64,000 bases of DNA from Antedon bifida (taxonomy: Eukaryota; Echinodermata; Crinoidea; Comatulida; Antedonidae): positions 8,160,501-8,224,500 of the forward strand of contig OY727103.1 in assembly GCA_963402885.1 (NCBI GenBank), written 5' to 3'. The translations under genes were made by a program, and so were the position numbers. Below, piece after piece: positions 19,781-63,854 of this stretch. Within the stretch, counting starts at the first letter, position 1. Each line of letters starts with the position of its first letter. The notes below the pieces were generated by a model, which did no database searches, was not told where the DNA came from, and was given only the letters and a program-made list of their open reading frames with translations.

Positions 19781-21418
19781 TTGTTATTAGGTGATCATTT
19801 AGAATAAAATGATCACCTATTGTTATTGTATGAAATCTTTATTGTTATTATTATTAGGTGATCATTTAGAATAAAATGATCACCTATTGTTATTGTATGA
19901 AATCTTTATTGTTATTATTATTCTTCTTCTTTCTGTACACTTTTGTTTAGCAATTATTTCAAAAAGTTGAATAACAATGATCACAAAAATTTTACAATGT
20001 CTTTCAAATACTTTAACTTAGCCATAATAAGCTTTTCAGCGTGATCACTCAACCGTGACGTCATTAATAAGCGATTTTGTGAAATCACACTATCAATCAT
20101 ATCTCCATAACTCTTTATCACATATCAATAAAATTCACTATACGTAAACTTCAGGTGAAGGATAAAAATATTAACAAATAAAAACTTACATTTTTCAAGG
20201 TCATGCACGTGAAATTGCGCGTTAAAAATTTAAAAAGCTCCAAATTAAGTTTTGATCAATTTAGAGCATGAGTTAGGCCATTTGCGTGTTTCAAAAAATT
20301 ACTGCTCAAAAATGCGTTTTTGCGTGCGCAATTCTTAAAATGCGTAAAAATATGAATTTTTTTTACAAATCGTATTCTACTCACCATCCTTAGTACATTC
20401 ACCAAATTTGAGTCTGTTCCGACTTAAAATAACGCTATACGAGCAGGTTAAAAATGACAAAATGCGCACATTAATTGTACAAAAGTGCTAAAAATGGTAA
20501 AAAATAAGGCCTTTTAAAAATTAATATAACTCTTCAGAATGCACGATGACCCCCAATTTTTTTAACTTATTCTGGAAGCCAATGAGTTGTAGATATAAAT
20601 GTATATACACATTAGACGTACAAAATGGTATGACGTCATCATTTGGCCACATTAATTTTTAAAATAGGGTTTTTTCCCCTTTTGTAATGAACCACCATAT
20701 TCAACAGAGCGCAACTCGCTTATCTGTGATCGATTTTCTTTAAATTTTTAATATATTCTACCTCAACCAATTATGTTACTTATGAGTTGCCAATATTTTC
20801 ATTTGGATGATGTCATCACGTCTTAAAATTTAAATAACGGTGGTTACGTAATTTCACCTACAAGGTATACTTGAATACCTTACAGCTCTTCTGAATTAAA
20901 GTTGACCTTGATGTTTATAACTTATTATGAGAGCTGGTGAAATGTAGATGAATTATTATAGAAATTAAGATGTTATGACGTTATCATATGGCCAGTTGAA
21001 GTTAAAAAGTAGTATTTTCATCTCTTTCGTCAAAGTTATACAATTTTTAAAGAGCGCGCACCGCCCTTCTACGTGCCAAATTTTCTTCCAATTGTTATAT
21101 TTTATTGCTCAATTCATTATCTTTCGATATTGTTATCCACAAGTTTATTTTGATAATGTCATCAGTGCCGAAAAATTAGAACATGATGTGTGTCCGTAAT
21201 TTCACCAATGCTACACTGTATATATACAGTAAATACTGTACATAATGTATATGGCATATAATAGGCACAGCACTATAGTATAACCGTATAATAGGATGGC
21301 ATACATCAACATTTTCTGATTGTATTTTAAAATATGTGCATGTTTAAAAAATATTAATGTCAATAAAATTATAAAAATGATCACCTATAATTCGTCAAAG
21401 TGACGAATTAAATTCTAG
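19781..21418 (+). mobile_element. Unit U13, family 1 variant A, double 5' hairpin
   Basis: A leader remnant TTGTTA is followed by two complete 5' hairpins (19788-19819 and 19855-19886), each with its own TTGTTATTGTATGAAATC leader. The body has small private losses, such as CCTATCGG missing near 20967. CTAG is at 21415-21418. Confidence 0.8.
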
Positions 21419-23001: not shown

Positions 23002-24559
23002 TGAGAAATTGTTTTTGTAAAACAAAAAATGTTTCTTCGCAATTTCTTTCTGTACAGATTTTGTGTAACAAATATCTCAAAAAGTTTAATGTCAATGATT
23101 ACCAAAATTTCTGAATGTCTTTCAAATACTTTAACTTAGTCCTAATAAGCTTTTCAGCGTGATCACTCATCCGTGACGTAATTTAGACGCCATTTTGTGA
23201 AATCACATTATCAATCATATCTCCATAATTCATTATCACATATTAATGAAATTCACTACACGTAAACTTTAGGTCAAGGGTAAAAATATTAACAAATAAA
23301 AACACGCGCACACGTAGGGTCATGCGCGTGAAATCGCGCGTTAAAAATTTAAAAAGCTCAAAATTAAGTTTTGATTAATTTAGAGCATGAATTAGGCCAT
23401 TTGCGTGTTTCAAAAAATTACTGCGCAAAAAAATATTTTGCGCGCGCGATACTTACAAAGCGTAAAAAATGCAATTTTTTTATACAAATCGCATTCTACT
23501 CACCAGCCTTAGTACATTCACCAAATTTGAGTCAGTTCCAACTTAAAATAACACTATACGAGCAGGTTAAAAATGACAAAATGCGCAAATTAATTGCATC
23601 AAAGTGCTGAAAATGGTGAAAAATAAGGCCTTTTTAAAATGAATATAAATCTTCAGAATGGCAGGTGACCCCTAATTTTTTTAACTTATTCGGGAAGCCA
23701 TTGGGTTGTAGATACATATTCATGTACACATTAGACGTACAAAATGGTATGATGTCATCAAATGGCCACTTGAATTTAAAAATTAGTAATTTTTATCTTT
23801 TTGTGTGGGTTATCACATTCAATAGAGCGCATCTCCGTTATTTGAGCCCGATTTTCGCAAACATTTTAGAATGTGCTTGCTGAATTGATTATCTTTCTCA
23901 TGGGTTGTAAACATTTTTATTTTGATGACGTCATCACGCGTAAAAACTTGAATAACCTAGGTCGTGTAATTTTAGCTACACCGTACATTTGAATATCTAA
24001 TAGCTCTTCAGAATTAAAGGTGACCTTGAAGATTATAACTTATTATGAAAGCTGTTGAAATGTAGATATGAATTCATATAAAAATTAAGCCTATCGGATG
24101 TTTTGATGTTATCATATGGCCAGTTGAAGTTAAAACGTAGTTTTTAGATTTCTTTAGTCGAAGTTATACAAATTTCAATGAGCGCGCATTGCGCTTCTAC
24201 GTATCAAATTCTCTTCCAATCCTTATATTTATTTGCTCAATTCATTATCTTTCGAAATTGTCATCTTCGAGTTTATTTTGATAATTCCATCATACCAACA
24301 AATTTGAACATGATGTGGGTCCCATAATTTTACCTATGCTACACTGTATATAGATATACAGTATACTGTATATATTGTATATGACACATAATAGGTACAA
24401 CTCAGCACTATAAGTGTATATGCATCATGTCATAGGATGGCGTACATCAGCTTTTTACGATCGTATGTTAACGTACGTGCATGTTTAAAAAATGTTAATT
24501 TCATTAAAATGATAAAAATGATCACCTATAATTCGTCAAAGTGACGAATTAAATTCTAG
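23002..24559 (+). mobile_element. Unit U15, family 1 variant D/B mosaic, E-type leader
   Basis: E-type leader TGAGAAATTGTTTTTG. The first part is variant D, with AAAAAAATATTTTGCGCGCG at the internal hairpin; similar sequence occurs in M5 and M11. Later modules are B-like. CTAG is at 24556-24559. Confidence 0.75.
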
Positions 24560-26185
24560 TTAGGTGATCATTTAGAATAAAATGATCACCTATTGTTATT
24601 GTACAAAATCTTTATTAGGTGATCATTTAGAATAAAATGATCACCTATTGTTATTGTACAAAATATTATTATTATTCTTCTTTCTGTACACTTTTTGTTT
24701 AACAATTATCTCAAAAAGTTGAATAACAATGATCACAAAAATTTCACAATGTCTTTCAAATACTTTAACTTAGCCATAATAAGCTTTTCAGCGTGATCAC
24801 TCAACCGTGACGTCATTAATACGCGATTTTGTGAAATCACACTATCAATCATATCTCCATAACTCTTTATCACATATCAATAAAATTCACTATACGTAAA
24901 CTTCAGGTGAAGGATAAAAATATTAACAAATAAAAACTTACATTTTTCAAGGTCATGCACGTGAAATTGCGCGTTAAAAATTTAAAAAGCTCCAAATTAA
25001 GTTTTGATCAATTTAGAGCATGAGTTAGGCCATTTGCGTGTTTCAAAAAATTACTGCGCAAAAATGCGTTTTTGCGTGCGCAATTCTTAAAATGCGTAAA
25101 AAATATGAATTTTTTTTACAAATCGTATTCTACTCACCATCCTTAGTACATTCACCAAATTTGAGTCTGTTCCGACTTAAAATAACGCTATACGAGCAGG
25201 TTAAAAATGACAAAATGCGCACATTAATTGTACAAAAGTGCTAAAAATGGTAAAAAATAAGGCCTTTTTAAAATTAATATAACTCTTCAGAATGCACGAT
25301 GACCCCCAATTTTTTTAACTTATTCTGGAAGCCAATGAGTTGTAGATATAAATGTATATACACATTAGACGTACAAAATGGTATGACGTCATCATTTGGC
25401 CACATTAATTTTTAAAATAGGGTTTTTTCCCATTTTGTAATGGACCACCATATTCAACAGAGCGCAACTCGCTTATCTGTGATCGATTTTCTTTAAATTT
25501 TTAATATATTCTACCTCAACCAATTATGTTACTTATGAGTTGCCAATATTTTCATTTGGATGATGTCATCACGTCTTAAAATTTAAATAACGGTGGTTAC
25601 GTAATTTCACCTACAAGGTATACTTGAATACCTTACAGCTCTTCTGAATTAAAGTTGACCTTGATGTTTATAACTTATTATGAGAGCTGGTGAAATGTAG
25701 ATATGAATTATTATAGAAATTAAGCCTATCGGATGTTGTGACGTTATCATATGGCCAGTTGAAATTAAAAAGTAGTTTTTTCATCTCTTTCGTCAAAGTT
25801 ATACAATTTTTAAAGAGCGCGCACCGCCCTTCTACGTGCCAAATTTTCTTCCAATTGTTATATTTTATTGCTCAATTCATTATCTTTCGATATTGTAATC
25901 CACAAGTTTATTTTGATAATGTCATCAGTGCCGAAAAATTAGAACATGATGTGTGTCCGTAATTTCACCAATGCTACACTGTATATAGATATACAGTATA
26001 TACTGTACATAATGTATATGGCATATAATAGGCACAGCACTATAGTATAACCGTATAATAGGATGGCATACATCAACATTTTCTGATTGTATTTTAAAAT
26101 ACGTGCATGTTTAAAAAATATTAATGTCAATAAAATAATAAAAATGATCACCTATAATTCGTCAAAGTGACGAATTAAATTCTAG
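24560..26185 (+). mobile_element. Unit U16, family 1 variant A, double 5' hairpin
   Basis: Two 5' hairpins (24561-24592 and 24616-24647) precede one body. The first leader stops at CAAAATCTTTA. CTAG at 26182-26185 is followed by a unit that has no hairpin. Confidence 0.8.
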
Positions 26186-27698
26186 TTCTTCTTCTTTCTG
26201 TACACTTTTGTTTAGCAATTATCTCAAAAAGTTGAATAACAATGATCACAAAAATTTCACAATGTCTTTCAAATACTTTAACTTAGCCATAATAAGCTTT
26301 TCAGCGTGATCACTCAACCGTGACGTCACGTATACGCGATTTTGTGAAATCACATTATCAATCATATGTCCATAATTGATTATGACATATTTATGAAATT
26401 CACTACACGTAAATTTCAGGTCAAGGTAAAAAATATTAGCAAATAAAAACTCGCGCGTCTCAAGGTCATGCACGTGAAATCGCGCGTAAAGATTTTTAAA
26501 AGCTCAAAATTAAGTTTTGATCAATTTAGAGCATGAGTTAGGCCATTTGCGTGTTTCAAAAAATTACTGCGCAAAAATGCGTTTTTGCGTGCGCAATTCT
26601 TAAAATGCGTAAAAAATATGAATTTTTTTTACAAATCGTATTCTACTCACCATCCTTAGTACATTCACCAAATTTGAGTCTGTTCCGACTTAAAATAACG
26701 CTATACGAGCAGGTTAAAAATGACAAAATGCGCACATTAATTGTACAAAAGTGCTAAAAATAGTAAAAAATAAGGCCTTTTTAAAATTAATATAACTCTT
26801 CAGAATGCACGATGACCCCCAATTTTTTTAACTTATTCTGGAAGCCAATGAGTTGTAGATATAAATGTATATACACATTAGACGTACAAAATGGTATGAC
26901 GTCATCATTTGGCCACATGAATTTTTAAAATAGGGTTTTTTCCCCTTTTGTAATGGACCACCATATTCAACAGAGCGCAACTCGCTTATCTGTGATCGAT
27001 TTTCTTTAAATTTTTAATATATTCTACCTCAACCAATTATGTTACTTATGAGTTGCCAATATTTTCATTTGGATGATGTCATCACGTCTTAAAATTTAAA
27101 TAACGGTGGTTACGTAATTTCACCTACAGGGTATACTTGAATACCTTACAGCTCTTCTGAATTAAAGTTGACCTTGATGTTTATAACTTATTATGAGAGC
27201 TGGTGAAATGTAGATATGAATTATTATAAAAATTAAGCCTATCGGATGTTGTGACGTTATCATATGGCCAGTTGAAGTTAAAAAGTAGTTTTTTCATCTC
27301 TTTCGTCAAAGTTATACAATTTTTAAAGAGCGCGCACCGCCCTTCTATGTGCCAAATTTTCTTCCAATTGTTATATTTTATTGCTCAATTCATTATCTTT
27401 CGATATTGTTATCCACAAGTTTATTTTGATAATGTCATCAGTGCCAAAAAATTAGAACATGATGTGTGTCCGTAATTTCACCAATGCTACACTGTATATA
27501 GATATACAGTATATACTGTACATAATGTATATGGCATATAATAGGCACAGCACTATAGTATAACCGTATAATAGGATGGCATACATCAACATTTTCCGAT
27601 TGTATTTTAACATACGTGCATGTTTAAAAAATATTAATGTCAATAAAATGATAAAAATGATCACCTATAATTCGTCAAAGTGACGAATTAAATTCTAG
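26186..27698 (+). mobile_element. Unit U17, family 1 mosaic B then A, no 5' hairpin
   Basis: The leader is only TTCTTC before TTTCTGTACAC. Up to about 26512 the body is B (GTCACGTATACGCG, ACTCGCGCGTCTCAAGG). From GAGCATGAGTTAGG (about 26533) onward it is A. The switch lies in a stretch that is identical in both variants. CTAG is at 27695-27698. Confidence 0.8.
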
Positions 27699-29339
27699 TT
27701 AGGTGATCATTTAGAATAAAATGATCACCTATTGTTATTGTACAAAATCTTTATTATTAGGTGATCATTTAGAATAAAATGATCACCTATTGTTATTGTA
27801 TGAAATCTTTATTGTTATTATTATTCTTCTTTCTGTACACTTTTGTTTAGCAATTATCTCAAAAAGTTGAATAACAATGATCACAAAAATTTCACAATGT
27901 CTTTCAAATACTTTAACTTAGCCATAATAAGCTTTTCAGCGTGATCACTCAACCGTGGCGTCACGTATACGCGATTTTGTGAAATCACATTATCAATCAT
28001 ATGTCCATAATTGATTATGACATATTTATGAAATTCACTACACGTAAATTTCAGGTCAAGGTAAAAAATATTAGCAAATAAAAACTCGCGCGTCTCAAGG
28101 TCATGCACGTGAAATCGCGCGTAAAGATTTTTAAAAGCTCAAAATTAAGTTTTGATCAATTTAGAGCATGAATTAGGCCATTTGCGTGTTTCAAAAAATT
28201 ACTGCGCAAAAACACGTTTTTGCGCACGCGATTCGTAAAAAGCGTAAAAAATAAAATTTGATGTATAAATCACATTTTACTCACAATTCTTAGTACATTC
28301 ACCAAATTTGAGTTCATTTCCACTTAAAATAATGCTCTACAAGCACGTTAAAAATGACAAAATGCACACATTAATTGTACAAAAGTGCTAAAAATGGTAA
28401 AAATAAGGCCTTTTTAAAATGAAAATAACTCTTCAGAATGCACGATGACCCCTAAGTTTTTTAACTTATTCTGGAAGCCAATGAGTTGTAGATATAAATG
28501 TATATACACATTAGACGTACAAAATGGTATTACGTCATCAAATGGCCACTTGAATTTAAAAATTAGGATTTTTTTCCGTTTTGTGTAGGTTATCACATTC
28601 AATAAAGCACATCTCCGCTTTTTGAGCTCGATTTTCGCACAAATGTCAGTGTGTGCTTGCTTAATTATTTATCTTTCTCATAAGTTGTCAGTGTTTTCAT
28701 TTTGATGACGTCATCACGCGTAAAAACTTGAATAACGTAGGTCGTGTAATTTCACCTTTGTCGTAAATTTGAATATCTTACAGCTCTTCAGAATTGAAGG
28801 TTACCTTGATGATTATAATTTATTATGAAAGCTGATGAAATGTAGATATGAATTCATATAAAAACCAAGCCTATCGGATGTTGTGACGTTAACATATGGC
28901 CAGATGAAGTTAAAAAGTAGTTTTTTCATCTTTTTCGTAAATTTTATACAAATTTCAAAGAGCGTGCACAGCGCTTCTACGTGCCAGATTCTCTTCCAAT
29001 TCTTATATTTATTTGCTCAATTCATTATCTTTCGAAATTGTCATCTTCGAGTTTATTTTGATAATTCCATCATACCAAAAAATTAGAACATGGTGTGTGT
29101 CCCGTAATTTCACCTATGCTACACTGTATATAGATATACAGTATATACTGTACATATTGTATATGGCATGTAATAGGCACAACTCAGCACTATAAGCGTA
29201 TGCATCATGTCATAGGATGGCGTACATCAACTTTTTACGATCGTATGTTAACGTACATGCATGTTTAAAAAATGTTAATTTCATTAAAATGATAAAAATG
29301 ATCACCTATAATTCGTCAAAGTGACGAATTAAATTCTAG
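27699..29339 (+). mobile_element. Unit U18, family 1 variant B, double 5' hairpin
   Basis: Hairpins at 27700-27731 and 27758-27789. The first leader stops at CAAAATCTTTATTA. The body is B with some A/C-like bases near 28300. CTAG is at 29336-29339. Confidence 0.8.
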
Positions 29340-30873
29340 TTGTTATTATTATTATTCTTCTTCTTTCTGTACACTTTTGTTTAGCAATTATCTCAAAAAG
29401 TTGAATAACAATGATCACAAAAATTTCACAATGTCTTTCAAATACTTTAACTTAGCCATAATAAGCTTTTCAGCGTGATCACTCAACCGTGACGTCACGT
29501 ATACGCGATTTTGTGAAATCACATTATCAATCATATGTCCATAATTGATTATGACATATTTATGAAATTCACTACACGTAAATTTCAGGTCAAGGTAAAA
29601 AATATTAGCAAATAAAAACTCGCGCGTCTCAAGGTCATGCACGTGAAATCGCGCGTAAAGATTTTTAAAAGCTCAAAATTAAGTTTTGATCAATTTAGAG
29701 CATGAATTAGGCCATTTGCGTGTTTCAAAAAATTACTGCGCAAAAACACGTTTTTGCGCACGCGATTCGTAAAAAGCGTAACAAATAAAATTTGATGTAT
29801 AAATCACATTCTACTCACAATTCTTAGTACATTCACCGATCTTGAGTCCATTCCGACTTAAAATAACGATATACGAGCACGTTAAAAAAGACAAAATGCG
29901 CACATTAATTTCACAAAAGTTCTGAAAATGGTGAAAAATATGTCTTTTTTAAAATGAAAATAACTCTTCAGAATGCACGATGACCCCTAAGTTTTTTAAC
30001 TTATTCGGGAAGCCATTGAGTTGTAGATATAAATGTATATACACATTAGACGTACAAAATGGTATTACGTCATCAAATGGCCACTTGAATTTAAAAATTA
30101 GGATTTCTTTCCGTTTTGTGTAGGTTATCACATTCAATAGAGCGCATCTCCGCTATTTGAGCTCGATTTTCGCACAAATTTCAGTGTGTGCTTGCTTAAT
30201 TATTTATCTTTCTCATAAGTTGTCAGTGTTTTCATTTTAATGACGTCATCACGCGTAAAAACTTGAATAACGTAGGTCGTGTAATTTCACCTTTGTCGTA
30301 AATTTGAATATCTTACAGCTCTTCAGAATTGAAGGTTACCTTGATGATTATAATTTATTATGAAAGCTGATGAAATGTAGATATGAATTCATATAAAAAC
30401 CAAGCCTATCGGATGTTGTGACGTTAACATATGGCCAGATGAAGTTAAAAAGTAGTTTTTTCATCTTTTTCGTAAATTTTATACAAATTTCAAAGAGCGT
30501 GCACAGCGCTTCTACGTGCCAGATTCTCTTCCAATTCTTATATTTATTTGCTCAATTCATTATCTTTCGAAATTGTCATCTTCGAGTTTATTTTGATAAT
30601 TCCATCATATCAAAAAATTAGAACATGATGTGTGTCCCGTAATTTCACCTATGCTACACTGTATATAGATATACAGTATATACTGTACATATTGTATATG
30701 GCATGTAATAGGCACAACTCAGCACTATAAGCGTATGCATCATGTCATAGGATGGCGTACATCAACTTTTACGATCGTATGTTAACGTACATGCATGTTT
30801 AAAAAATGTTAATTTCATTAAAATGATAAAAATGATCACCTATAATTCGTCAAAGTGACGAATTAAATTCTAG
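29340..30873 (+). mobile_element. Unit U19, family 1 variant B, no 5' hairpin
   Basis: The leader starts TTGTTATTATTATTATTC with no hairpin. It looks like the second half of a leader whose first half lies in front of U18. The body is nearly identical to U5 and M4. CTAG is at 30870-30873. Confidence 0.8.
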
Positions 30874-32510
30874 TTAGGTGATCATTTAGAATAAAATGAT
30901 CACCTATTGTTATTGTACAAAATCTTTATTATTAGGTGATCATTTAGAATAAAATGATCACCTATTGTTATTGTATGAAATCTTTATTGTTATTATTATT
31001 CTTCTTCTTCTTTCTGTACACTTTTGTTTAGCAATTATCTTAAAAAGTTGAATAACAATGATCACAAAAATTTCACAATGTCTTTCAAATACTTTAACTT
31101 AGCCATAATAAGCTTTTCAGCGTGATCACTCAACCGTGACGTCATTAATACGCGATTTTGTGAAATCACACTATCAATCATATCTCCATAACTCTTTATC
31201 ACATATCAATAAAATTCACTATACGTAAACTTCAGGTGAAGGATAAAAATATTAACAAATAAAAACTTACATTTTTCAAGGTCATGCACGTGAAATTGCG
31301 CGTTAAAAATTAAAAAAGCTCCAAATTAAGTTTTGATCAATTTAGAGCATGAGTTAGGCCATTTGCGTGTTTCAAAAAATTACTGCGCAAAAATGCGTTT
31401 TTGCGTGCGCAATTCTTAAAATGCGTAAAAAATATGAATTTTTTTTACAAATCGTATTCTACTCACCATCCTTAGTATATTCACCAAATTTGAGTCTGTT
31501 CCGACTTAAAATAACGCTATACGAGCAGGTTAAAAATGACAAAATGCGCACATTAATTGTACAAAAGTGCTAAAAATAGTAAAAAATAAGGCCTTTTTAA
31601 AATTAATATAACTCTTCAGAATGCACGATGACCCCCAATTTTTTTAACTTATTCTGGAAGCCAATGAGTTGTAGATATAAATGTATATACACATTAGACG
31701 TACAAAATGGTATGACGTCATCATTTGGCCACATGAATTTTTAAAATAGGGTTTTTTCCCCTTTTGTAATGGACCACCATATTCAACAGAGCGCAACTCG
31801 CTTATCTGTGATCGATTTTCTTTAAATTTTTAATATATTCTACCTCAACCAATTATGTTACTTATGAGTTGCCAATATTTTCATTTGGATGATGTCATCA
31901 CGTCTTAAAATTTAAATAACGGTGGTTACGTAATTTCACCTACAAGGTATACTTGAATAACTTACGGCTCTTCTGAATTAAAGTTGACCTTGATGTTTAT
32001 AACTTATTATGAGAGCTGGTGAAATGTAGATATGAATTATTATAAAAATTAAGCCTATCGGATGTTGTGACGTTATCATATGGCCAGTTGAAGTTAAAAA
32101 GTAGTTTTTTCATCTCTTTCGTCAAAGTTATACAATTTTTAAAGAGCGCGCACCGCCCTTCTACGTGCCAAATTTTCTTCCAATTGTTATATTTTATTGC
32201 TCAATTCATTATCTTTCGATATTGTTATCCACAAGTTTATTTTGATGTCATCAGTGCCGAAAAATTAGAACATGATGTGTGTCCGTAATTTCACCAATGC
32301 TAACTGTATATAGATATACAGTATATACTGTACATAATGTATATGGCATATAATAGGCACAGCACTATAGTATAACCGTATAATAGGATGGCATACATCA
32401 ACATTTTCTGATTGTATTTTAACATACGTGCATGTTTAAAAAATATTAATGTAAATAAAATTATAAAAATGATCACCTATAATTCGTCAAAGTGACGAAT
32501 TAAATTCTAG
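30874..32510 (+). mobile_element. Unit U20, family 1 variant A, double 5' hairpin
   Basis: Hairpins at 30875-30906 and 30933-30964. The first leader again stops at CTTTATTA. The body shares private indels with U11. CTAG is at 32507-32510. Confidence 0.8.
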
Positions 32511-34037
32511 TTGTTATTATTATTATTCTTCTTCTTTCTGTACACTTTTGTTTAGCAATTATCTCAAAAAGTTGAATAACAATGATCACAAAAATTTCAC
32601 AATGTCCTTCAAATACTTTAACTTAGCCATAATAAGCTTTTCAGCGTGATCACTCAACCGTGACGTCATTAATACGCGATTTTGTGAAATCACACTATCA
32701 ATCATATCTCCATAACTCTTTATCACATATCAATAAAATTCACTATACGTAAACTTCAGGTGAAGGATAAAAATATTAACAAATAAAAACTTACATTTTT
32801 CAAGGTCATGCACGTGAAATTGCGCGTTAAAAATTTAAAAAGCTCCAAATTAAGTTTTGATCAATTTAGAGCATGAGTTAGGCCATTTGCGTGTTTCAAA
32901 AAATTACTGCGCAAAAATGCGTTTTTGCGTGCGCAATTCTTAAAATGCGTAAAAAATATGAATTTTTTTTACAAATCGTATTCTACTCACCATCCTTAGT
33001 ACATTCACCAAATTTGAGTCTGTTCCGACTTAAAATAACGCTATACGAGCAGGTTAAAAATGACAAAATGCGCACATTAATTGTACAAAAGTGCTAAAAA
33101 TAGTAAAAAATAAGGCCTTTTTAAAATTAATATAACTCTTCAGAATGCACGATGACCCCCAATTTTTTTAACTTATTCTGGAAGCCAATGAGTTGTAGAT
33201 ATAAATGTATATACACATTAGACGTACAAAATGGTATGACGTCATCATTTGGCCACATGAATTTTTAAAATAGGGTTTTTTCCCCTTTTGTAATGGACCA
33301 CCATATTCAACAGAGCGCAACTCGCTTATCTGTGATCGATTTTCTCTAAATTTTTAATATATTCTACCTCAACCAATTATGTTACTTATGAGTTGCCAAT
33401 ATTTTTATTTGGATGATGTCATCACGTCTTAAAATTTAAATAACGATGGTTACGTAATTTCACCTACAAGGTATACTTGAATACCTTACAGCTCTTCTGA
33501 ATTAAAGTTGACCTTGATGTTTATAACTTATTATGAGAGCTGGTGAAATGTAGATATGAATTATTATAAAAATTAAGCCTATCGGATGTTGTGACGTTAT
33601 CATATGGCCAGTTAAAGTTAAAAAGTAGTTTTTTCATCTCTTTCGTCAAAGTTATACAATTTTTAAAGAGCGCACACCGCCCTTCTACGTGCCAAATTTT
33701 CTTCCAATTGTTATATTTTATTGCTCAATTCATTATCTTTCGATATTGTTATCCACAAGTTTATTTTGATAATGTCATCAGTGCCAAAAAATTAGAACAT
33801 GATGTGTGTCCGTAATTTCACCAATGCTACACTGTATATAGATATACAGTATATACTGTACATAATGTATATGGCATATAATAGGCACAGCACTATAGTA
33901 TAACCGTATAATAGGATGGCATACATCAACATTTTCTGATTGTATTTTAACATACGTGCATGTTAAAAAAATATTAATGTCAATAAAATTATAAAATGAT
34001 CACCTATAATTCGTCAAAGTGACGAATTAAATTCTAG
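32511..34037 (+). mobile_element. Unit U21, family 1 variant A, no 5' hairpin
   Basis: The leader TTGTTATTATTATTATTC matches the leader of U19. The 3' end has CATGTTAAAAAAATATT and one A fewer before TGATCACC, shared only with U22. CTAG is at 34034-34037. Confidence 0.8.
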
Positions 34038-35565
34038 TTATTATTATTCTTCTTCTTCTTTCTGTACACTTTTGTTTAGCAATTATCTCAAAAAGTTGAA
34101 TAACAATGATCACAAAAATTTCACAATGTCTTTCAAATACTTTAACTTAGCCATAATAAGCTTTTCAGCGTGATCACTCAACCGTGACGTCATTAATACG
34201 CGATTTTGTGAAATCACACTATCAATCATATCTCCATAACTCTTTATCACATATCAATAAAATTCACTATACGTAAACTTCAGGTGAAGGATAAAAATAT
34301 TAACAAATAAAAACTTACATTTTTCAAGGTCATGCACGTGAAATTGCGCGTTAAAAATTTAAAAAGCTCCAAATTAAGTTTTGATCAATTTAGAGCATGA
34401 GTTAGGCCATTTGCGTGTTTCAAAAAATTACTGCGCAAAAATGCGTTTTTGCGTGCGCAATTCTTAAAATGCGTAAAAAATATGAATTTTTTTTACAAAT
34501 CGTATTCTACTCACCATCCTTAGTACATTCACCAAATTTGAGTCTGTTCCGACTTAAAATAACGCTATACGAGCAGGTTAAAAATGACAAAATGCGCACA
34601 TTAATTGTACAAAAGTGCTAAAAATGGTAAAAAATAAGGCCTTTTTAAAATTAATATAACTCTTCAGAATGCACGATGACCCCCAATTTTTTTAACTTAT
34701 TCTGGAAGCCAATGAGTTGTAGATATAAATGTATATACACATTAGACGTACAAAATGGTATGACGTCATCATTTGGCCACATTAATTTTTAAAATAGGGT
34801 TTTTTCCCATTTTGTAATGGACCACCATATTCAACAGAGCGCAACTCGCTTATCTGTGATCGATTTTCTTTAAATTTTTAATATATTCTACCTCAACCAA
34901 TTATGTTACTTATGAGTTGCCAATATTTTCATTTGGATGATGTCATCACGTCTTAAAATTTAAATAACGGTGGTTACGTAATTTCACCTACAAGGTATAC
35001 TTGAATACCTTACAGCTCTTCTGAATTAAAGTTGACCTTGATGTTTATAACTTATTATGAGAGCTGGTGAAATGTAGATATGAATTATTATAGAAATTAA
35101 GCCTATCGGATGTTGTGACGTTATCATATGGCCAGTTGAAGTTAAAAAGTAGTTTTTTCATCTCTTTCGTCAAAGTTATACAATTTTTAAAGAGCGCGCA
35201 CCGCCCTTCTACGTGCCAAATTTTCTTCCAATTGTTATATTTTATTGCTCAATTCATTATCTTTCGATAATTATTGTAATCCACAAGTTTATTTTGATAA
35301 TGTCATCAGTGCCGAAAAATTAGAACATGATGTGTGTCCGTAATTTCACCAATGCTACACTGTATATAGATATACAGTATATACTGTACATAATGTATAT
35401 GGCATATAATAGGCACAGCACTATAGTATAACCGTATAATAGGATGGCATACATCAACATTTTCTGATTGTATTTTAACATACGTGCATGTTAAAAAAAT
35501 ATTAATGTCAATAAAATTATAAAATGATCACCTATAATTCGTCAAAGTGACGAATTAAATTCTAG
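34038..35565 (+). mobile_element. Unit U22, family 1 variant A, no 5' hairpin
   Basis: Its leader is identical to that of U23 and its 3' end is identical to that of U21. This suggests one-unit duplication by unequal exchange. It carries a small insertion in TCGATAATTATTGTAATCC near 35270. CTAG is at 35562-35565. Confidence 0.8.
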
Positions 35566-37090
35566 TTATTATTATTCTTCTTCTTCTTTCTGTACACTTT
35601 TGTTTAGCAATTATCTCAAAAAGTTGAATAACAATGATCACAAAAATTTCACAATGTCTTTCAAATACTTTAACTTAGCCATAATAAGCTTTTCAGCGTG
35701 ATCACTCAACCGTGACGTCATTAATACGCGATTTTGTGAAATCACACTATCAATCATATCTCCATAACTCTTTATCACATATCAATAAAATTCACTATAC
35801 GTAAACTTCAGGTGAAGGATAAAAATATTAACAAATAAAAACTTACATTTTTCAAGGTCATGCACGTGAAATTGCGCGTTAAAAATTTAAAAAGCTCCAA
35901 ATTAAGTTTTGATCAATTTAGAGCATGAGTTAGGCCATTTGCGTGTTTCAAAAAATTACTGCGCAAAAATGCGTTTTTGCGTGCGCAATTCTTAAAATGC
36001 GTAAAAAATATGAATTTTTTTTACAAATCGTATTCTACTCACCATCCTTAGTACATTCACCAAATTTGAGTCTGTTCCGACTTAAAATAACGCTATACGA
36101 GCAGGTTAAAAATGACAAAATGCGCACATTAATTGTACAAAAGTGCTAAAAATGGTAAAAAATAAGGCCTTTTTAAAATTAATATAACTCTTCAGAATGC
36201 ACGATGACCCCCAATTTTTTTAACTTATTCTGGAAGCCAATGAGTTGTAGATATAAATGTATATACACATTAGACGTACAAAATGGTATGACGTCATCAT
36301 TTGGCCACATTAATTTTTAAAATAGGGTTTTTTCCCATTTTGTAATGGACCACCATATTCAACAGAGCGCAACTCGCTTATCTGTGATCGATTTTCTTTA
36401 AATTTTTAATATATTCTACCTCAACCAATTATGTTACTTATGAGTTGCCAATATTTTCATTTGGATGATGTCATCACGTCTTAAAATTTAAATAACGGTG
36501 GTTACGTAATTTCACCTACAAGGTATACTTGAATACCTTACAGCTCTTCTGAATTAAAGTTGACCTTGATGTTTATAACTTATTATGAGAGCTGGTGAAA
36601 TGTAGATATGAATTATTATAGAAATTAAGCCTATCGGATGTTGTGACGTTATCATATGGCCAGTTGAAGTTAAAAAGTAGTTTTTTCATCTCTTTCGTCA
36701 AAGTTATACAATTTTTAAAGAGCGCGCACCGCCCTTCTACGTGCCAAATTTTCTTCCAATTGTTATATTTTATTGCTCAATTCATTATCTTTCGATATTG
36801 TAATCCACAAGTTTATTTTGATAATGTCATCAGTGCCGAAAAATTAGAACATGATGTGTGTCCGTAATTTCACCAATGCTACACTGTATATAGATATACA
36901 GTATATACTGTACATAATGTATATGGCATATAATAGGCACAGCACTATAGTATAACCGTATAATAGGATGGCATACATCAACATTTTCTGATTGTATTTT
37001 AAAATACGTGCATGTTTAAAAAATATTAATGTCAATAAAATAATAAAAATGATCACCTATAATTCGTCAAAGTGACGAATTAAATTCTAG
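35566..37090 (+). mobile_element. Unit U23, family 1 variant A, no 5' hairpin
   Basis: ATT/CTT leader without a hairpin, then a clean variant A body very close to U1 and U16. CTAG is at 37087-37090. Confidence 0.8.
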
Positions 37091-38730
37091 TTAGGTGATC
37101 ATTTAGAATAAAATGATCACCTATTGTTATTGTACAAAATATTATTATTAGGTGATCATTTAGAATAAAATGATCACCTATTGTTATTGTATGAAATCTT
37201 TATTGTTATTATTATTCTTCTTCTTCTTTCTGTACACTTTTGTTTAGCAATTATCTCAAAAAGTTGAATAACAATGATCACAAAAATTTCACAATGTCTT
37301 TCAAATACTTTAACTTAGCCATAATAAGCTTTTCAGCGTGATCACTCAACCGTGACGTCATTAATACGCGATTTTGTGAAATCACACTATCAATCATATC
37401 TCCATAACTCTTTATCACATATCAATAAAATTCACTATACGTAAACTTCAGGTGAAGGATAAAAATATTAACAAATAAAAACTTACATTTTTCAAGGTCA
37501 TGCACGTGAAATTGCGCGTTAAAAATTTAAAAAGCTCCAAATTAAGTTTTGATCAATTTAGAGCATGAGTTAGGCCATTTGCGTGTTTCAAAAAATTACT
37601 GCGCAAAAATGCGTTTTTGCGTGCGCAATTCTTAAAATGCGTAAAAAATATGAATTTTTTTTACAAATCGTATTCTACTCACCATCCTTAGTACATTCAC
37701 CAAATTTGAGTCTGTTCCGACTTAAAATAACGCTATACGAGCAGGTTAAAAATGACAAAATGCGCACATTAATTGTACAAAAGTGCTAAAAATGGTAAAA
37801 AATAAGGCCTTTTTAAAATTAATATAACTCTTCAGAATGCACGATGACCCCCAATTTTTTTAACTTATTCTGGAAGCCAATGAGTTGTAGATATAAATGT
37901 ATATACACATTAGACGTACAAAATGGTATGACGTCATCATTTGGCCACATTAATTTTTAAAATAGGGTTTTTTCCCCTTTTGTAATGGACCACCATATTC
38001 AACAGAGCGCAACTCGCTTATCTGTGATCGATTTTCTTTAAATTTTTAATATATTCTACCTCAACCAATTATGTTACTTATGAGTTGCCAATATTTTCAT
38101 TTGGATGATGTCATCACGTCTTAAAATTTAAATAACGGTGGTTACGTAATTTCACCTACAGGGTATACTTGAATACCTTACAGCTCTTCTGAATTAAAGT
38201 TGACCTTGATGTTTATAACTTATTATGAGAGCTGGTGAAATGTAGATATGAATTATTATAGAAATTAAGCCTATCGGATGTTGTGACGTTATCATATGGC
38301 CAGTTGAAGTTAAAAAGTAGTTTTTTCATCTCTTTCGTCAAAGTTATACAATTTTTAAAGAGCGCGCACCGTCCTTCTACGTGCCAAATTTTCTTCCAAT
38401 TGTTATATTTTATTGCTCAATTCATTATCTTTCGATATTGTTATCCACAAGTTTATTTTGATAATGTCATCAGTGCCGAAAAATTAGAACATGATGTGTG
38501 TCCGTAATTTCACCAATGCTACACTGTATATAGATATACAGTATATACTGTACATAATGTATATGGCATATAATAGGCACAGCACTATAGTATAACCGTA
38601 TAATAGGATGGCATACATCAACATTTTCCGATTGTATTTTAACATACGTGCATGTTTAAAAAATATTAATGTCAATAAAATAATAAAAATGATCACCTAT
38701 AATTCGTCAAAGTGACGAATTAAATTCTAG
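37091..38730 (+). mobile_element. Unit U24, family 1 variant A, double 5' hairpin
   Basis: Hairpins at 37092-37123 and 37149-37180. The first leader is of the U5 type and stops at AAAATATTATTA. CTAG at 38727-38730 is followed by a hairpin-less unit. Confidence 0.8.
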
Positions 38731-40245
38731 TTATTCTTCTTTCTGTACACTTTTTGTTTAACAATTATCTCAAAAAGTTGAATAACAATGATCACAAAAA
38801 TTTCACAATGTCTTTCAAATACTTTAACTTAGCCATAATAAGCTTTTCAGCGTGATCACTCATCCGTGACGTCACGTATACGCCATTTTGTGAAATCACA
38901 TTATCAATCATATGTCCATAATTCATTATCACATATTTATGAAATCCACTACACGTAAATTTCAGGTTAAGGTAAAAAATATTAACAAATAAAAACTTGC
39001 GCATCTCAAGGTCATGCACGTGAAATCGCGCGCAAAGATTTTAAAAAGCTTAAAATTAAGTTTTGATCAATTTAGAGCATGAATTAGGCCATTTGCGTGT
39101 TTCAAAAAATTACTGCGCAAAAACACGTTTTTGCGTACGCGATTCTTAGAAGGCGTAAAAAATGAAATTTGATGTATAAATCACATTCTACTCACAATTC
39201 TTAGTACATTCACCGATCTTGAGTCCATTCCGACTTAAAATAACGGTATACGAGCACGTTAAAAAAGACAAAATGCGCACATTAATTTCACAAAAGTTCT
39301 GAAAATGGTGAAAAATATGTCTTTTTTAAAATTAATATAACTCTTCAGAATGCACGATGACCCCTAAGTTTTTTAACTTATTCGGGAAGCCATTGAGTTG
39401 TAGATATAAATTTATATACACATTAGACGTACAAAATGGTATTACATCATCAAATGGCCACATGAATTTTTAAAATAGGGTTTTTTCCCCTTTTGTAATG
39501 GACCACCATATTCAACAGAGCGCAACTCGCTTATCTGTGATCGATTTTCTTTAAATTTTTAATATATTCTACCTCAACCAATTATGTTACTTATGAGTTG
39601 CCAATATTTTCATTTGGATGATGTCATCACGTCTTAAAATTTAAATAACGGTGGTTACGTAATTTCACCTACAAGGTATACTTGAATACCTTACAGCTCT
39701 TCTGAATTAAAGTTGACCTTGATGTTTATAATTTATTATGAGAGCTGGTGAAATGTAGATATGAATTATTATAAAAATTAAGCCTATCGGATGTTGTGAC
39801 GTTATCATATGGCCAGTTGAAGTTAAAAAGTATTTTTTTCATCTCTTTCGTCAAAGTTATACAATTTTTAAAGAGCGCGCACCGCCCTTCTACGTGCCAA
39901 ATTTTCTTCCAATTGTTATATTTTATTGCTCAATTCATTATCTTTCGATATTGTTATCCACAAGTTTATTTTGATAATGTCATCAGTGCCGAAAAATTAG
40001 AACATGATGTGTGTCCGTAATTTCACCAATGCTACACTGTATATAGATATACAGTATATACTGTACATAATGTATATGGCATATAATAAGCACACAGCAC
40101 TATAGTATAACCGTATAATAGGATGGCATACATCAACATTTTCTGATTGTATTTTAACATACGTGCATGTTTAAAAAATATTAATGTCAATAAAATTATG
40201 AAAATGATCACCTATAATTCGTCAAAGTGACGAATTAAATTCTAG
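38731..40245 (+). mobile_element. Unit U25, family 1 mosaic B and A, no 5' hairpin
   Basis: Leader TTATTCTTC followed by TTTCTGTACACTTTTTG, the U5 type. The body is B-like at first, with a short A-like word AAAATTAATATAAC near 39330. It then switches to A at about 39460, where GGCCACATGAATTTTTAAAA replaces the B sequence. CTAG is at 40242-40245. Confidence 0.8.
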
Positions 40246-41799: not shown

Positions 41800-42381
41800 T
41801 TTTTTACTATTTTTAGCACTTTTGTACAATTAATGTGCGCATTTTGTCATTTTTAACCTGCTCGTATAGCGTTATTTTAAGTCGGAACAGACTCAAATTT
41901 GGTGAATGTACTAAGGATGGTGAGTAGAATACGATTTTATGCATTTTAAGAATTGCGCACGCAAAAACGCATTTTTGCGCAGTAATTTTTTGAAACACGC
42001 AAATGGCCTAACTCATGCTCTAAATTGATCAAAACTTAATTTGGAGCTTTTTAAATTTTTAACGCGCAATTTCACGTGCATGACCTTGAAAAATGTAAGT
42101 TTTTATTTGTTAATATTTTTATCCTTCACCTGAAATTTACGTATAGTGAATTTTATTGATATGTGATAAAGAGTTATGGAGATATGATTGATAGTGTGAT
42201 TTCACAAAATCGCGTATTAATGACGTCACGGTTGAGTGATCACGCTGAAAAGCTTATTATGGCTAAGTTAAAGTATTTGAAAGACATTGTGAAATTTTTG
42301 TGATCATTGTTATTCAACTTTTTGAGATAATTGTTAAACAAAAGTGTACAGAAAGAAGAAGAATAATAATAATAATAACAA
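41800..42381 (-). mobile_element. M1, family 1 variant A, only the 5' third present
   Basis: On the - strand it runs from a hairpin-less ATT/CTT leader (about 42345-42381) to TAAAAATAGTAAAAAA, where it stops against the CTAG of U26. About 20 bases are missing near 41935 relative to other A copies. The rest of the unit is not in the window. Confidence 0.8.
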
Positions 42382-43884
42382 CTAGAATTTAATTCGTCAC
42401 TTTGACGAATTATAGGTGATCATTTTTATCATTTTATTGACATTAATATTTTTTAAACATGCACGTATGTTAAAATACAATCAGAAAATGTTGATGTATG
42501 CCATCCTATTATACGGTTATACTATAGTGCTGTGCCTATTATATGCCATATACATTATGTACAGTATATACTGTATATCTATATACAGTGTAGCATTGGT
42601 GACATTACGGACACACATCATGTTCTAATTTTTCGGCACTGATGACATTATCAAAATAAACTTGTGGATAACAATATCGAAAGATAATGAATTGAGCAAT
42701 AAAATATAACAATTGGAAGAAAATTTGGCACGTAGAAGGGCGGTGCACGCTCTTTAAAAATTGTATAACTTTGACGAAAGAGATGAAAAAACTACTTTTT
42801 AACTTCAACTGGCCATATGATAACGTCACAACATCCGATAGGCTTAATTTTTATAATAATTCATATCTACATTTCACCAGCTCTCATAATAAGTTATAAA
42901 CATCAAGGTCAACTTTAATTCAGAAGAGCTGTAAGGTATTCAAGTATACCTTGTAGGTGAAATTACGTAACCACCGTTATTTAAATTTTAAGACGTGATG
43001 ACATCATCCAAATGAAAATATTGGCAACTCATAAGTAACATAATTGGTTGAGGTAGAATATATTAAAAATTTAAAGAAAATCGATCACAGATAAGCGAGT
43101 TGCGCTCTGTTGAATATGGTGGTCCATTACAAAAGGGGAAAAAACCCTATTTTAAAAATTCATGTGGCCAAATGATGACGTCATATCATTTTGTACGTCT
43201 AATGTGTATATACATTTATATCTACAACTCATTGGCTTCTAGAATAAGTTAAAAAAATTGGGGGTCATCGTGCATTCTGAAGAGTTATATTAATTTTAAA
43301 AAGGCCTTATTTTTTACTATTTTTAGCACTTTTGTACAATTAATGTGCGCATTTTGTCATTTTTAACCTGCTCGTATAGCGTTATTTTAAGTCGGAACAG
43401 ACTCAAATTTGGTGAATGTACTAAGGATGGTGAGTAGAATACGATTTGTAAAAAAAATTCATATTTTTTACGCATTTTAAGAATTGCGCACGCAAAAACG
43501 CATTTTTGCGCAGTAATTTTTTGAAACACGCAAATGGCCTAACTCATGCTCTAAATTGATCAAAACTTAATTTGGAGCTTTTTAAATTTTTAACGCGCAA
43601 TTTCACGTGCATGACCTTGAAAAATGTAAGTTTTTATTTGTTAATATTTTTACCCTTCACCTGAAGTTTACGTATAGTGAATTTTATTGATATGTGATAA
43701 AGAGTTATGGAGATATGATTGATAGTGTGATTTCACAAAATCGCGTATTAATGACGTCACGGTTGAGTGATCACGCTGAAAAGCTTATTATGGCTAAGTT
43801 AAAGTATTTGAAAGACATTGTGAAATTTTTGTGATCATTGTTATTCAACTTTTTGAGATAATTGCTAAACAAAAGTGTACAGAA
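42382..43884 (-). mobile_element. M2, family 1 variant A, leader lost
   Basis: CTAG is at 42382-42385, and the body is complete up to TTCTGTACAC. There the upstream side changes abruptly to interior sequence of M3, with no triplet leader and no CTAG between. Module B contains GGTGCACGC in place of GGTGCGCGC. Confidence 0.8.
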
Positions 43885-44808
43885 CCACCGTTATTTAAAT
43901 TTTAAGACGTGATGACATCATCCAAATGAAAATATTGGCAACTCATAAGTAACATAATTGGTTGAGGTAGAATATATTAAAAATTTAAAGAAAATCGATC
44001 ACAGATAAGCGTGTTGCGCTCTGTTGAATATGGTGGTCCATTACAAAAGGGGAAAAAACCCTATTTTAAAAATTCATGTGGCCAAATGATGACGTCATAC
44101 CATTTTGTACGTCTAATGTGTATATACATTTATATCTACAACTCATTGGCTTCCAGAATAAGTTAAAAAAATTGGGGGTCATCGTGCATTCTGAAGAGTT
44201 ATATTAATTTTAAAAAGGCCTTATTTTTTACTATTTTTAGCACTTTTGTACAATTAATGTGCGCATTTTGTCATTTTTAACCTGCTCGTATAGCGTTATT
44301 TTAAGTCGGAACAGACTCAAATTTGGTGAATGTACTAAGGATGGTGAGTAGAATACGATTTGTAAAAAAAATTCATATTTTTTACGCATTTTAAGAATTG
44401 CGCACGCAAAAACGCATTTTTGCGCAGTAATTTTTTGAAACACGCAAATGGCCTAACTCATGCTCTAAATTGATCAAAACTTAATTTGGAGCTTTTTAAA
44501 TTTTTAACGCGCAATTTCACGTGCATGACCTTGAAAAATGTAAGTTTTTATTTGTTAATATTTTTACCCTTCACCTGAAGTTTACGTATAGTGAATTTTA
44601 TTGATATGTGATAAAGAGTTATGGAGATATGATTGATAGTGTGATTTCACAAAATCGCGTATTAATGACGTCACGGTTGAGTGATCACGCTGAAAAGCTT
44701 ATTATGGCTAAGTTAAAGTATTTGAAAGACATTGTGAAATTTTTGTGATCATTGTTATTCAACTTTTTGAGATAATTGCTAAACAAAAGTGTACAGAAAG
44801 AAGAATAA
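43885..44808 (-). mobile_element. M3, family 1 variant A, 3' part deleted
   Basis: Only the leader and the first part of the body, up to AATAACGGTGG of module A, are present (924 bp). Module B, the TA palindromes, the 3' inverted repeat and CTAG are absent. The leader (TTATTCTTC) has no hairpin. Confidence 0.8.
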
Positions 44809-46464
44809 CTAGAATTTAATTCGTCACTTTGACGAATTATAGGTGATCATTTTTATCATTTTAATGAAATTAACATTTTTTAAACATGCATGTACGTTAA
44901 CATACGATCGTAAAAGTTGATGTACGCCATCCTATGACATGATGCATACGCTTATAGTGCTGAGTTGTGCCTATTACATGCCATATACAATATGTACAGT
45001 ATATACTGTATATCTATATACAGTGTAGCATAGGTGAAATTACGGGACACACATCATGTTCTAATTTTTTGATATGATGGAATTATCAAAATAAACTCGA
45101 AGATGACAATTTCGAAAGATAATGAATTGAGCAAATAAATATAAGAATTGGAAGAGAATCTGGCACGTAGAAGCGCTGTGCACGCTCTTTGAAATTTGTA
45201 TAAAATTTACGAAAAAGATGAAAAAACTACTTTTTAACTTCATCTGGCCATATGTTAACGTCACAACATCCGATAGGCTTGGTTTTTATATGAATTCATA
45301 TCTACATTTCATCAGCTTTCATAATAAATTATAATCATCAAGGTAACCTTCAATTCTGAAGAGCTGTAAGATATTCAAATTTACGACAAAGGTGAAATTA
45401 CACGACCTACGTTATTCAAGTTTTTACGCGTGATGACGTCATTAAAATGAAAACACTGACAACTTATGAGAAAGATAAATAATTAAGCAAGCACACACTG
45501 AAATTTGTGCGAAAATCGAGCTCAAATAGCGGAGATGCGCTCTATTGAATGTGATAACCTACACAAAACGGAAAGAAATCCTAATTTTTAAATTCAAGTG
45601 GCCATTTGATGACGTAATACCATTTTGTACGTCTAATGTGTATATACATTTATATCTACAACTCAATGGCTTCCCGAATAAGTTAAAAAACTTAGGGGTC
45701 ATCGTGCATTCTGAAGAGTTATTTTCATTTTAAAAAAGACATATTTTTCACCATTTTCAGAACTTTTGTGAAATTAATGTGCGCATTTTGTCTTTTTTAA
45801 CGTGCTCGTATATCGTTATTTTAAGTCGGAATGGACTCAAGATCGGTGAATGTACTAAGAATTGTGAGTAGAATGTGATTTATACATCAAATTTTATTTG
45901 TTACGCTTTTTACGAATCGCGTGCGCAAAAACGTGTTTTTGCGCAGTAATTTTTTGAAACACGCAAATGGCCTAATTCATGCTCTAAATTGATCAAAACT
46001 TAATTTTGAGCTTTTAAAAATCTTTACGCGCGATTTCACGTGCATGACCTTGAGACGCGCGAGTTTTTATTTGCTAATATTTTTTACCTTGACCTGAAAT
46101 TTACGTGTAGTAAATTTCATAAATATGTCATAATCAATTATGGACATATGATTGATAATGTGATTTCACAAAATCGCGTATACGTGACGTCACGGTTGAG
46201 TGATCACGCTGAAAAGCTTATTATGGCTAAGTTAAAGTATTTGAAAGACATTGTGAAATTTTTGTGATCATTGTTATTCAACTTTTTGAGATAATTGCTA
46301 AACAAAAGTGTACAGAAAGAAGAAGAATAATAATAATAACAATAATAAAGATTTTGTACAATAACAATAGGTGATCATTTTATTCTAAATGATCACCTAA
46401 TAATAACAATAAAGATTTCATACAATAACAATAGGTGATCATTTTATTCTAAATGATCACCTAA
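44809..46464 (-). mobile_element. M4, family 1 variant B, double 5' hairpin
   Basis: CTAG is at 44809-44812. The body is nearly identical to U5 and U19. Two 5' hairpins lie at 46368-46399 and 46432-46463. The outer leader stops at ATTGTTATTA on the - strand. Confidence 0.8.
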
Positions 46465-60681: not shown

Positions 60682-62192
60682 CTAGAATTTAATTCGTCAC
60701 TTTGACGAATTATAGGTGATCATTTTTATAATTTTATTGACATTAATATTTTTTAAACATGCACGTATTTTAAAATACAATCAGAAAATGTTGATGTATG
60801 CCATCCTATTATACGGTTATACTATAGTGCTGTGCCTATTATATATATACATTATGTACAGTATTTACTGTATATCCATATACAGTGTAGCATTGGTGAA
60901 ATTACGGACACACATCATGTTCTAATTTTTCGGCACTGATGACATTATCAAAATAAACTTGTGGATAACAATATCGAAAGATAATGAATTGAGCAATAAA
61001 ATATAACAATTGGAAGAAAATTTGGCACGTAGAAGGGCGGTGCGCGCTCTTTAAAAATTGTATAACTTTGACGAAAGAGATGAAAAAACTACTTTTTAAC
61101 TTCAACTGGCCATATGATAACGTCACAACATCCGATAGGCTTAATTTCTATAATAATTCATCTACATTTCACCAGCTCTCATAATAAGTTATAAACATCA
61201 AGGTCAACTTTAATTCAGAAGAGCTGTAAGGTATTCAAGTATACCTTGTAGGTGAAATTACGTAACCACCGTTATTTAAATTTTAAGACGTGATGACATC
61301 ATCCAAATGAAAATATTGGCAACTCATAAGTAACATAATTAGTTGAGGTAGAATATATTAAAAATTTAAAGAAAATCGATCACAGATAAGCGAGTTGTGC
61401 TCTGTTGAATATGGTGGTCCATTACAAAAGGGGAAAAAACCCTATTTTAAAAATTAATGTGGCCAAATGATGACGTCATACCATTTTGTACGTCTAATGT
61501 GTATATACATTTATATCTACAACTCATTGGCTTCCAGAATAAGTTAAAAAAATTGGGGGTCATCGTGCATTCTGAAGAGTTATATTAATTTTTAAAAGGC
61601 CTTATTTTTTACCATTTTTAGAACTTTTGTACAATTAATGTGCGCATTTTGTCATTTTTAACCTGCTCGTATAGCGTTATTTTAAGTCGGAACAGACTCA
61701 AATTTGGTGAATGTACTAAGGATGGTGAGTAGAATACGATTTGTAAAAAAAAATCATATTTTTTACGCATTTTAGGAATTGCGCACGCAAAAACGCATTT
61801 TTGCGCAGTAATTTTTTGAAACACGCAAATGGCCTAACTCATGCTCTAAATTGATCAAAACTTAATTTGGAGCTTTTTAAATTTTTAACGCGCAATTTCA
61901 CGTGCATGACCTTGAAAAATGTAAGTTTTTATTTGTTAATATTTTTATCCTTCACCTGAAGTTTACGTATAGTGAATTTTATTGATATGTGATAAAGAGT
62001 TATGGAGATATGATTGATAGTGTGATTTCACAAAATCGCGTATTAATGACGTCACGGTTGAGTAATCACGCTGAAAAGCTTATTATGGCTAAGTTAAAGT
62101 ATTTGAAAGACATTGTGAAATTTTTGTGATCATTGTTATTCAACTTTTTGAGATAATTGCTAAACAAAAGTGTACAGAAAGAAGAAGAATAA
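60682..62192 (-). mobile_element. M13, family 1 variant A, leader interrupted by F2-3
   Basis: CTAG is at 60682-60685. The TA palindromes contain a point change (GTATTTACTG near 60862). The leader TTATTCTTCTTC ends at the CTAG of F2-3. Its other half, with a hairpin, lies beyond F2-3. Confidence 0.8.
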
Positions 62193-63778: not shown

Positions 63779-63854
63779 TAATAACAATAAAGATTTCATA
63801 CAATAACAATAGGTGATCATTTTATTCTAAATGATCACCTAATAATAATAATAA
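63779..63854 (-). repeat. First half of M13 leader with 5' hairpin
   Basis: Hairpin at 63810-63841 with TTGTTATTGTATGAAATC and ATT triplets on the - strand. It is preceded by a further ATT run next to the CTAG of M14. F2-3 separates it from the rest of the leader of M13. Confidence 0.75.

Follow-up and report, generated by a model that had tools for sequence, protein, structure and literature searches.

How do copies of a short transposon come to lie one behind the other over tens of kilobases of a crinoid genome, some preceded by two terminal hairpins and others, directly behind them, by none? Missed termination, circles and consecutive insertion have been proposed as routes to tandem Helitron arrays. 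The window considered here comprises 64,000 nucleotides of Antedon bifida (contig 16, 8160501-8224500, of an assembly of 315.6 Mb in 27 contigs), and the original prediction held that inner units had inserted into the leaders of outer units, leaving one hairpin upstream and the remainder of the leader downstream. Our analysis indicates that non-autonomous, Helitron-like units running from TTAGG to CTAG very probably nest in the leaders of their siblings and in this way build arrays of one orientation; in our reading, nesting is the main process and not the sole one, as composites, losses and duplications take part too.

Anatomy of the unit and its arrays

Units of about 1.5 kb make up most of the window, on the plus strand up to 41.8 kb and on the minus strand beyond. 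The two arrays belong to the same family and stand tail-to-tail (1-41799 on the plus strand, 41800-64000 on the minus strand), with a truncated minus-strand unit (41800-42363) at their junction. No open reading frame of at least 110 amino acids is listed within the 64-kb window; the units are non-autonomous and encode no RepHel protein. Mapping of the palindromes, body starts and 3' ends along the plus and minus strands shows how a unit is built: a leader opens with a 33-bp palindrome (HP), continues as a tract of TTA/TTG and TTC triplets and leads into the body start (TTTCTGTACA), and the unit closes with a hairpin and CTAG (TAATTCGTCAAAGTGACGAATTAAATTCTAG). As single-stranded DNA, both ends fold strongly (Table 1). 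The exact HP is found 1369 times genome-wide, its reversed control not once. Copies in unique DNA on other contigs, either single (L016, L024) or the first of a cluster, have HP as their first sequence, with 5' flanks such as CATATAA and AAATTTA, and end in CTAG followed by T. Because these copies begin with HP, it represents the element's own 5' terminus. The element, TTAGG...CTAG, is of the Helitron-like rolling-circle type. An HP segment, AGGTGATCATTT, reappears inverted as AAATGATCACCT 32 nt from the 3' end, as read in the sequence.

The same arrays contain a second 5' type, type G, beginning with TGAGAAATTG or TGTGAAATTG. Its start (TGAGAAATTG..CAATTTC, for example window 8884-8930) forms a weaker hairpin (z -2.5) and is attached to similar bodies with identical 3' ends, and all 27 counted type G starts lie directly behind a CTAG of the same family; six 'other' G starts, judged by eye to be an internal body motif on the opposite strand, were not counted.

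Table 1. Units, leader pieces and termini discussed in the text (positions within the window)
Feature	Positions	Strand	Basis or remark
Unit 3' end, a hairpin (10-bp stem) and then an 8-nt tail closing with CTAG	24529..24559	+	DNA fold -8.0 kcal/mol, z -5.8
5' terminal palindrome (HP), first 33 bp of the element	24560..24592	+	DNA fold -11.2 kcal/mol, z -7.7
U13 left half, type C leader	19787..19853	+	leader mapping, bracket reading
U13 inner unit, next unit with own HP	19854..21418	+	leader mapping
Leader piece in front of U16 (a left half or one component of a composite leader)	24560..24614	+	join with U17 not a known leader
U16 inner unit, own type B leader, 1571 bp	24615..26185	+	leader mapping
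U17, leader truncated to TTCTTCTTC	26186..27698	+	by eye completes left half of U13 (type C), not that of U16
Left half, type A leader	27699..27756	+	exact join with 29340 onward
U18 inner unit, 1583 bp	27757..29339	+	join test
U19 outer unit, leader right half and body	29340..30873	+	join test
Left half, type A leader	30874..30931	+	exact join with 32511 onward
U20 inner unit, 1579 bp	30932..32510	+	join test
U21 outer unit	32511..34037	+	join test
Left half, type B leader	37091..37147	+	exact join with 38731 onward; 5 exact such halves in the genome
U24 inner unit, 1583 bp	37148..38730	+	join test
U25 outer unit, its body beginning with CTTTTTGTTTAAC, which is associated with type B leaders	38731..40245	+	join, linkage
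Left half, type C leader	46401..46464	-	exact join with 44808 downward
Inner unit, type A leader	44809..46400	-	join test
Outer unit, leader right half, body cut short at 3' side	43883..44808	-	join test
Left half, type C leader split by other-family element	63779..63842	-	join test
Inserted related-family element, 1586 bp, starts TTAGTTATCCGC, ends GACGAGTTTCATGTCTAG	62193..63778	-	join test
Outer unit, right half of other-family-split leader and body	60682..62192	-	join gives intact type C leader

Split leaders and their two halves

Two hairpins had been reported before the single body of U16, U18, U20 and U24, each followed by a unit with a hairpin-less leader, and this arrangement is present at all four positions, as is the exception of U13, where the next unit directly has its own HP (Table 1). 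The same succession, claimed for the minus strand as well, is found there in the pair at 46.4 kb; for the pair named 'M4/M3' the assignment is uncertain, the candidates being 59167/59093, with an other-family element before the right half, and the clean cross-family split at 63842 to 62193. Beyond the window, we read the 40 kb to its right (L034-L037) and other gathered loci, leaving out contained loci (L001, L002, L004, L005, L007, L008) and four Rep loci (L030-L033). A truncated or split leader comes next after units with at least two HPs in 16/24 cases (11 hairpin-less, 5 with a fragment and a new HP) and after single-HP units in 8/31 (7 and 1, respectively; Fisher p = 0.003), where the share of double leaders itself is biased upward, since a double-leader query found most of the loci. 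Truncated units (15/29) and G-type units (8/18) are intermediate, and the contrast of double-HP units with all others pooled (31/78) is weaker (p = 0.03).

The check proposed with the original prediction is to remove each inner unit, from TTAGG to CTAG, and to ask whether a known leader reappears. In each of 16 pairs, we attached the second-last HP piece to the beginning of the leader in the following unit and matched the product against intact sibling leaders elsewhere, which served as empty sites (16 unsplit leader types from 65 units, the number of TTC triplets being ignored). Within the window, the deletion restores a known leader exactly in four of five pairs (U18/19, U20/21, U24/25 and the minus-strand pair at 46.4 kb). 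At U16/U17, the pattern of two hairpins and none stands, while the joined leader matches no known one. Over all loci read, 12/16 joins are identical to a known intact leader (U16/U17 and three others fail), whereas shuffled right halves give 4.9 exact joins on average, a number of chance fits owed to the leader being a simple repeat, and none of 20,000 shuffles reaches 12. Under a stricter variant, which admits only leader types seen at least twice, 10/16 joins are exact (shuffle mean 3.7, with a fraction of 0.00015 reaching 10). Once TTAGG..CTAG is taken out, the leader has no surplus base and hence no target duplication; a one-base-shifted alternative (T^T, TAGG..CTAGT) is indistinguishable from A^T with TTAGG..CTAG.

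Eight of the 24 double-HP units have no split leader behind them. Such units would be accounted for if, in addition to nesting and not as a substitute for it, multi-hairpin composites transposed in a single piece that starts at the outermost 5' end and stops at the first 3' end, without leaving a downstream partner; this we consider possible, if somewhat short of probable. It would explain U13 and U16: read by eye, the truncated leader of U17 completes the left half of U13 and not that of U16, so that the double leader of U16 would be a composite moved as one piece. Two loci on two contigs (L010, L011) moreover have the same double leader behind the same other-family end, and composite transposition has been proposed for Fusarium in one section of the published account (PMC5148889, section 16). 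However, the 91% likeness of L010 and L011 extends over 4.2 kb and takes in the flank, so that the two loci may go back to the duplication of a single stretch; L010 possesses, by eye, a near-fitting right half behind an other-family unit, and complementary halves are left unexplained. Joint movement would be an occasional event. A pair of neighbouring units on the minus strand of L029 (contig 9, 7287 to 5427) has an identical triple-hairpin leader, most simply a tandem duplication of a composite unit.

Nesting further implies that pieces close in the reverse order of their opening, and the loci were parsed as brackets on a last-in-first-out basis, an HP piece opening, a fragment continuing and a fragment with body closing a leader. 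There are 41 multi-piece leaders, 20 of which have no left half in the stretch read; the remaining 21 closures comprise 14 exact ones, 2 that agree up to triplet number and 5 failures. When fragments were shuffled within their kind, exact closures averaged 2.9 with a maximum of 11 in 5,000 shuffles, and the 16 closures that are exact or agree up to triplet number compare with a null mean of 8.8 (4/5,000 reach 16). Runs with more than two leaders, taken alone, contribute 13 exact closures. To the right of the window (ARR, minus strand), two leaders opened at 99864 are closed in reverse order at 96544 and 95031, and on the plus strand of L023 a single leader is split into three pieces.

The halves are also linked by the bodies to which they belong. 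A body start with five T (CTTTTTGTTTAAC, as opposed to CTTTTGTTTAGC) accompanies 4/8 intact type B leaders and 3/42 intact leaders of types A, C and D; in all three pairs with a type B left half (contigs 16, 9 and 7), the outer body has CTTTTTGTTTAAC and the inner unit CTTTTGTTTAGC, and among non-B pairs the outer body has CTTTTTGTTTAAC in 1/8. Body starts were used for linking leader types instead of whole bodies; typing by whole-body similarity was rejected, leave-one-out voting being right in 58/74 cases (A 16/21, B 1/8, C 17/17, D 1/4, G 23/24), a failure that recombination of bodies may explain. In 8/9 pairs, with one tie, the best match of the inner unit lies at another locus and not in the outer unit enclosing it. 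The expectation that inner units are younger than outer ones was borne out in 7/9 pairs, with one tie and one against, which is not significant (p = 0.08; 2/11 pairs lacking a full body were dropped). Units with intact leaders have closer relatives than truncated ones (medians 1.000 vs 0.996, one-sided p = 0.001).

Rolling-circle read-through or circle amplification would yield concatemers, in which multi-hairpin leaders represent several 5' ends sharing one 3' end. Plant Helitron arrays that combine several 5' ends with one 3' end have indeed been reported (PMC12628747, in excerpt), and the triple leader shared by the two adjoining units of L029 would suit such an origin. Yet concatemers do not predict that leader halves are complementary, nor, in 8/9 pairs, are the inner units closest to their neighbours, and exact joins in which inner and outer units belong to different subfamilies refute them as the main cause; we regard this origin as very unlikely. 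Even less credible is a shuffling of hairpins between units by unequal exchange or replication slippage in (TTA)n leaders, as, despite triplet-rich leaders, variable TTC numbers and the resemblance of the L029 repeat to a tandem duplication, exchange between leaders preserves one hairpin per body and gives no paired double and hairpin-less units with complementary halves, and an other-family element (62193-63778) splits a leader that rejoins exactly. It had been argued from the outset that neither process predicts split leaders, and the complementary halves set both aside as the main cause. Insertion into a sibling leader is supported by complementary joins and by body variants that link the two halves.

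Exact halves can also be sought genome-wide. Type B has 5 left and 10 right halves, type A has 34 left halves (by a pattern that catches type D too) and 16 right halves. Within 5 kb and on the same strand, a left half lies on the correct side of 15/26 right halves (4/10 of B, 11/16 of A) and on the wrong side of four (1 of B, 3 of A). In 12 of these 15, the nearest left half is one (1585-1596 bp) or two (3134-3229 bp) unit lengths away, the other three distances being 600, 3892 and 4774 bp. Seen from the left halves, 4/5 (B) and 15/34 (A or D) have a partner; an exact partner within 5 kb is missing for 11/26 right and 20/39 left halves, and duplication may have turned a single event into several of the pairs.

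Landing sites and probable growth of the arrays

Among 112 HP starts, 40 are preceded by an HP-bearing leader piece, 14 by a leader piece behind CTAG, 37 directly by a same-family CTAG, 2 by an other-family CTAG and 19 by other DNA (two of the latter inside a unit body, L017 and, in opposite orientation, L027). Leader remnants thus receive 54/112 starts, and 52 of these 54 follow directly after TTA, which suggests that the copies carry their landing sites with them. AT sites number 186 in one representative body and 8 in the tail of a type A leader, TTATT sites 5 and 7, respectively. The flanks are mostly TTA or TAA before the element and T after it, with the ambiguity of a one-base shift, and seamless, exact junctions of the CTAG|TTAGG type number 279.

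Integration takes place between A and T (or its one-base-shift equivalent) without target duplication, mostly at TTA^TT, and the tract (TTA/TTG)n(TTC)n behind each terminal palindrome offers several such sites. An element landing there in the same orientation would leave the palindrome and a partial leader upstream, seen as a double hairpin, and the leader remainder with its body, devoid of a hairpin, downstream. Landing at the left edge (A^TTAGG) would produce the seamless CTAG|TTAGG junction, and repeated landings would give nested arrays of one orientation that grow at the 5' end of the units. A triplet tract serving as directional landing tract would explain the uniform orientation of the arrays. 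We lean, by a narrow measure, towards a more general view, in which each insertion supplies both an oriented tract for further landings, namely a (TTA)n leader containing several TTA^TT sites, and a fresh 5' edge, so that copies attract copies of the same orientation and arrays grow 5'-ward by nesting, with the order of insertion kept as matched brackets, across related families too. The 1586-bp element inserted into a minus-strand leader has a palindrome (GTTATCCGC..GCGGATAAC) and a 3' end (CGAGTTTCATGTCTAG) that both differ from those of the window units. In a related family (L039, minus strand), three leader hairpins (GGTTATCCGC..) with poly-T tracts between them stand in a row, whereas the leader of the unit directly downstream is hairpin-less, both read by eye.

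As to the enzyme, the genome contains 39 Helitron_like_N matches. One Rep copy (contig 8, 19812900-19823500) has a reported open frame of 3152 aa; it was read in three pieces, L038, L033 and L040, which form one frame by coordinates, with a gap of 1.5 kb between L033 and L040. Its OTU, Helitron_like_N and endonuclease/exonuclease/phosphatase domains form the Helentron layout. The same frame includes Herpes_teg_N-like and DUF6570 domains and repeats such as KLAEKYRSN. As a partner of the window units this copy was rejected, its 3' end of hairpin and CTAG (AAGCCCGGAGGGCTT..CTAG) differing from theirs. Helraiser has circles and AT targets (PMC4778049, in part), and by analogy insertion from a circle would be plausible here. 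The transposase and the chemistry we infer.

Relation to known elements and significance

Canonical Helitrons (Helitron1) begin with 5' TC, end with CTRR behind a hairpin and insert between A and T without target duplication. The window units share the CTAG (CTRR) end, the hairpin before an 8-nt tail and, in the 12/16 exact joins, the mode of insertion; the 5' TC is absent, copies in unique DNA starting with TTAGG. In their termini (5' TT, 3' CTAG) and in their A^T target without duplication, the units agree with proto-Helentron-Pi of Phytophthora, as described in excerpts of PMC4067079; this element, however, is about 14 kb long and codes for Rep/helicase, whereas our units measure about 1.5 kb, have no long open reading frame and start with a palindrome. 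The same excerpts characterise HINE/DINE-1 elements as non-autonomous, with palindromic subterminal inverted repeats near both ends, a 3' palindrome and, in some, a microsatellite. The window units are likewise non-autonomous, and their 5' palindrome with an inverted arm copy near the 3' end recalls these elements. The HINE/DINE-1 repeats of 12-15 bp are placed 38-60 bp from the 3' end, the arm copy of the window units 32 nt from it. HINE/DINE-1 elements have at least two T flanking each end at T-rich sites; the window units have TTA^TT as target and CTAG as 3' end, and the one-base shift leaves the count of their flanking T ambiguous.

For Fusarium FoHeli (Helitron2), PMC5148889 describes asymmetric terminal inverted repeats, several 5' termini with one 3' terminus and, in some groups, a hairpin at either end, and proposes self-insertion into 5' ends. 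Our units share these features, and self-insertion is proposed for both; the Fusarium account offers some cases and a model, whereas many pairs with both halves, several levels of nesting and a triplet-repeat landing leader are found here. Adjacent maize Helitrons (PMC2267711, in excerpt) concern a single pair, compared with the hundreds of seamless junctions, plus nested ones, reported above. Among the papers listed, no title or beginning of an abstract mentions a bracket-readable array or a leader landing tract, which argues weakly for their absence from the literature. Tandem Helitrons and self-insertion are already published, and what is new here is scale and legibility. With many split leaders preserved in both pieces, a single assembly reveals some of the sequence in which the units inserted, and it becomes possible to test whether a dispersed transposon can turn into a satellite-like array through self-targeting by its triplet-repeat leader.
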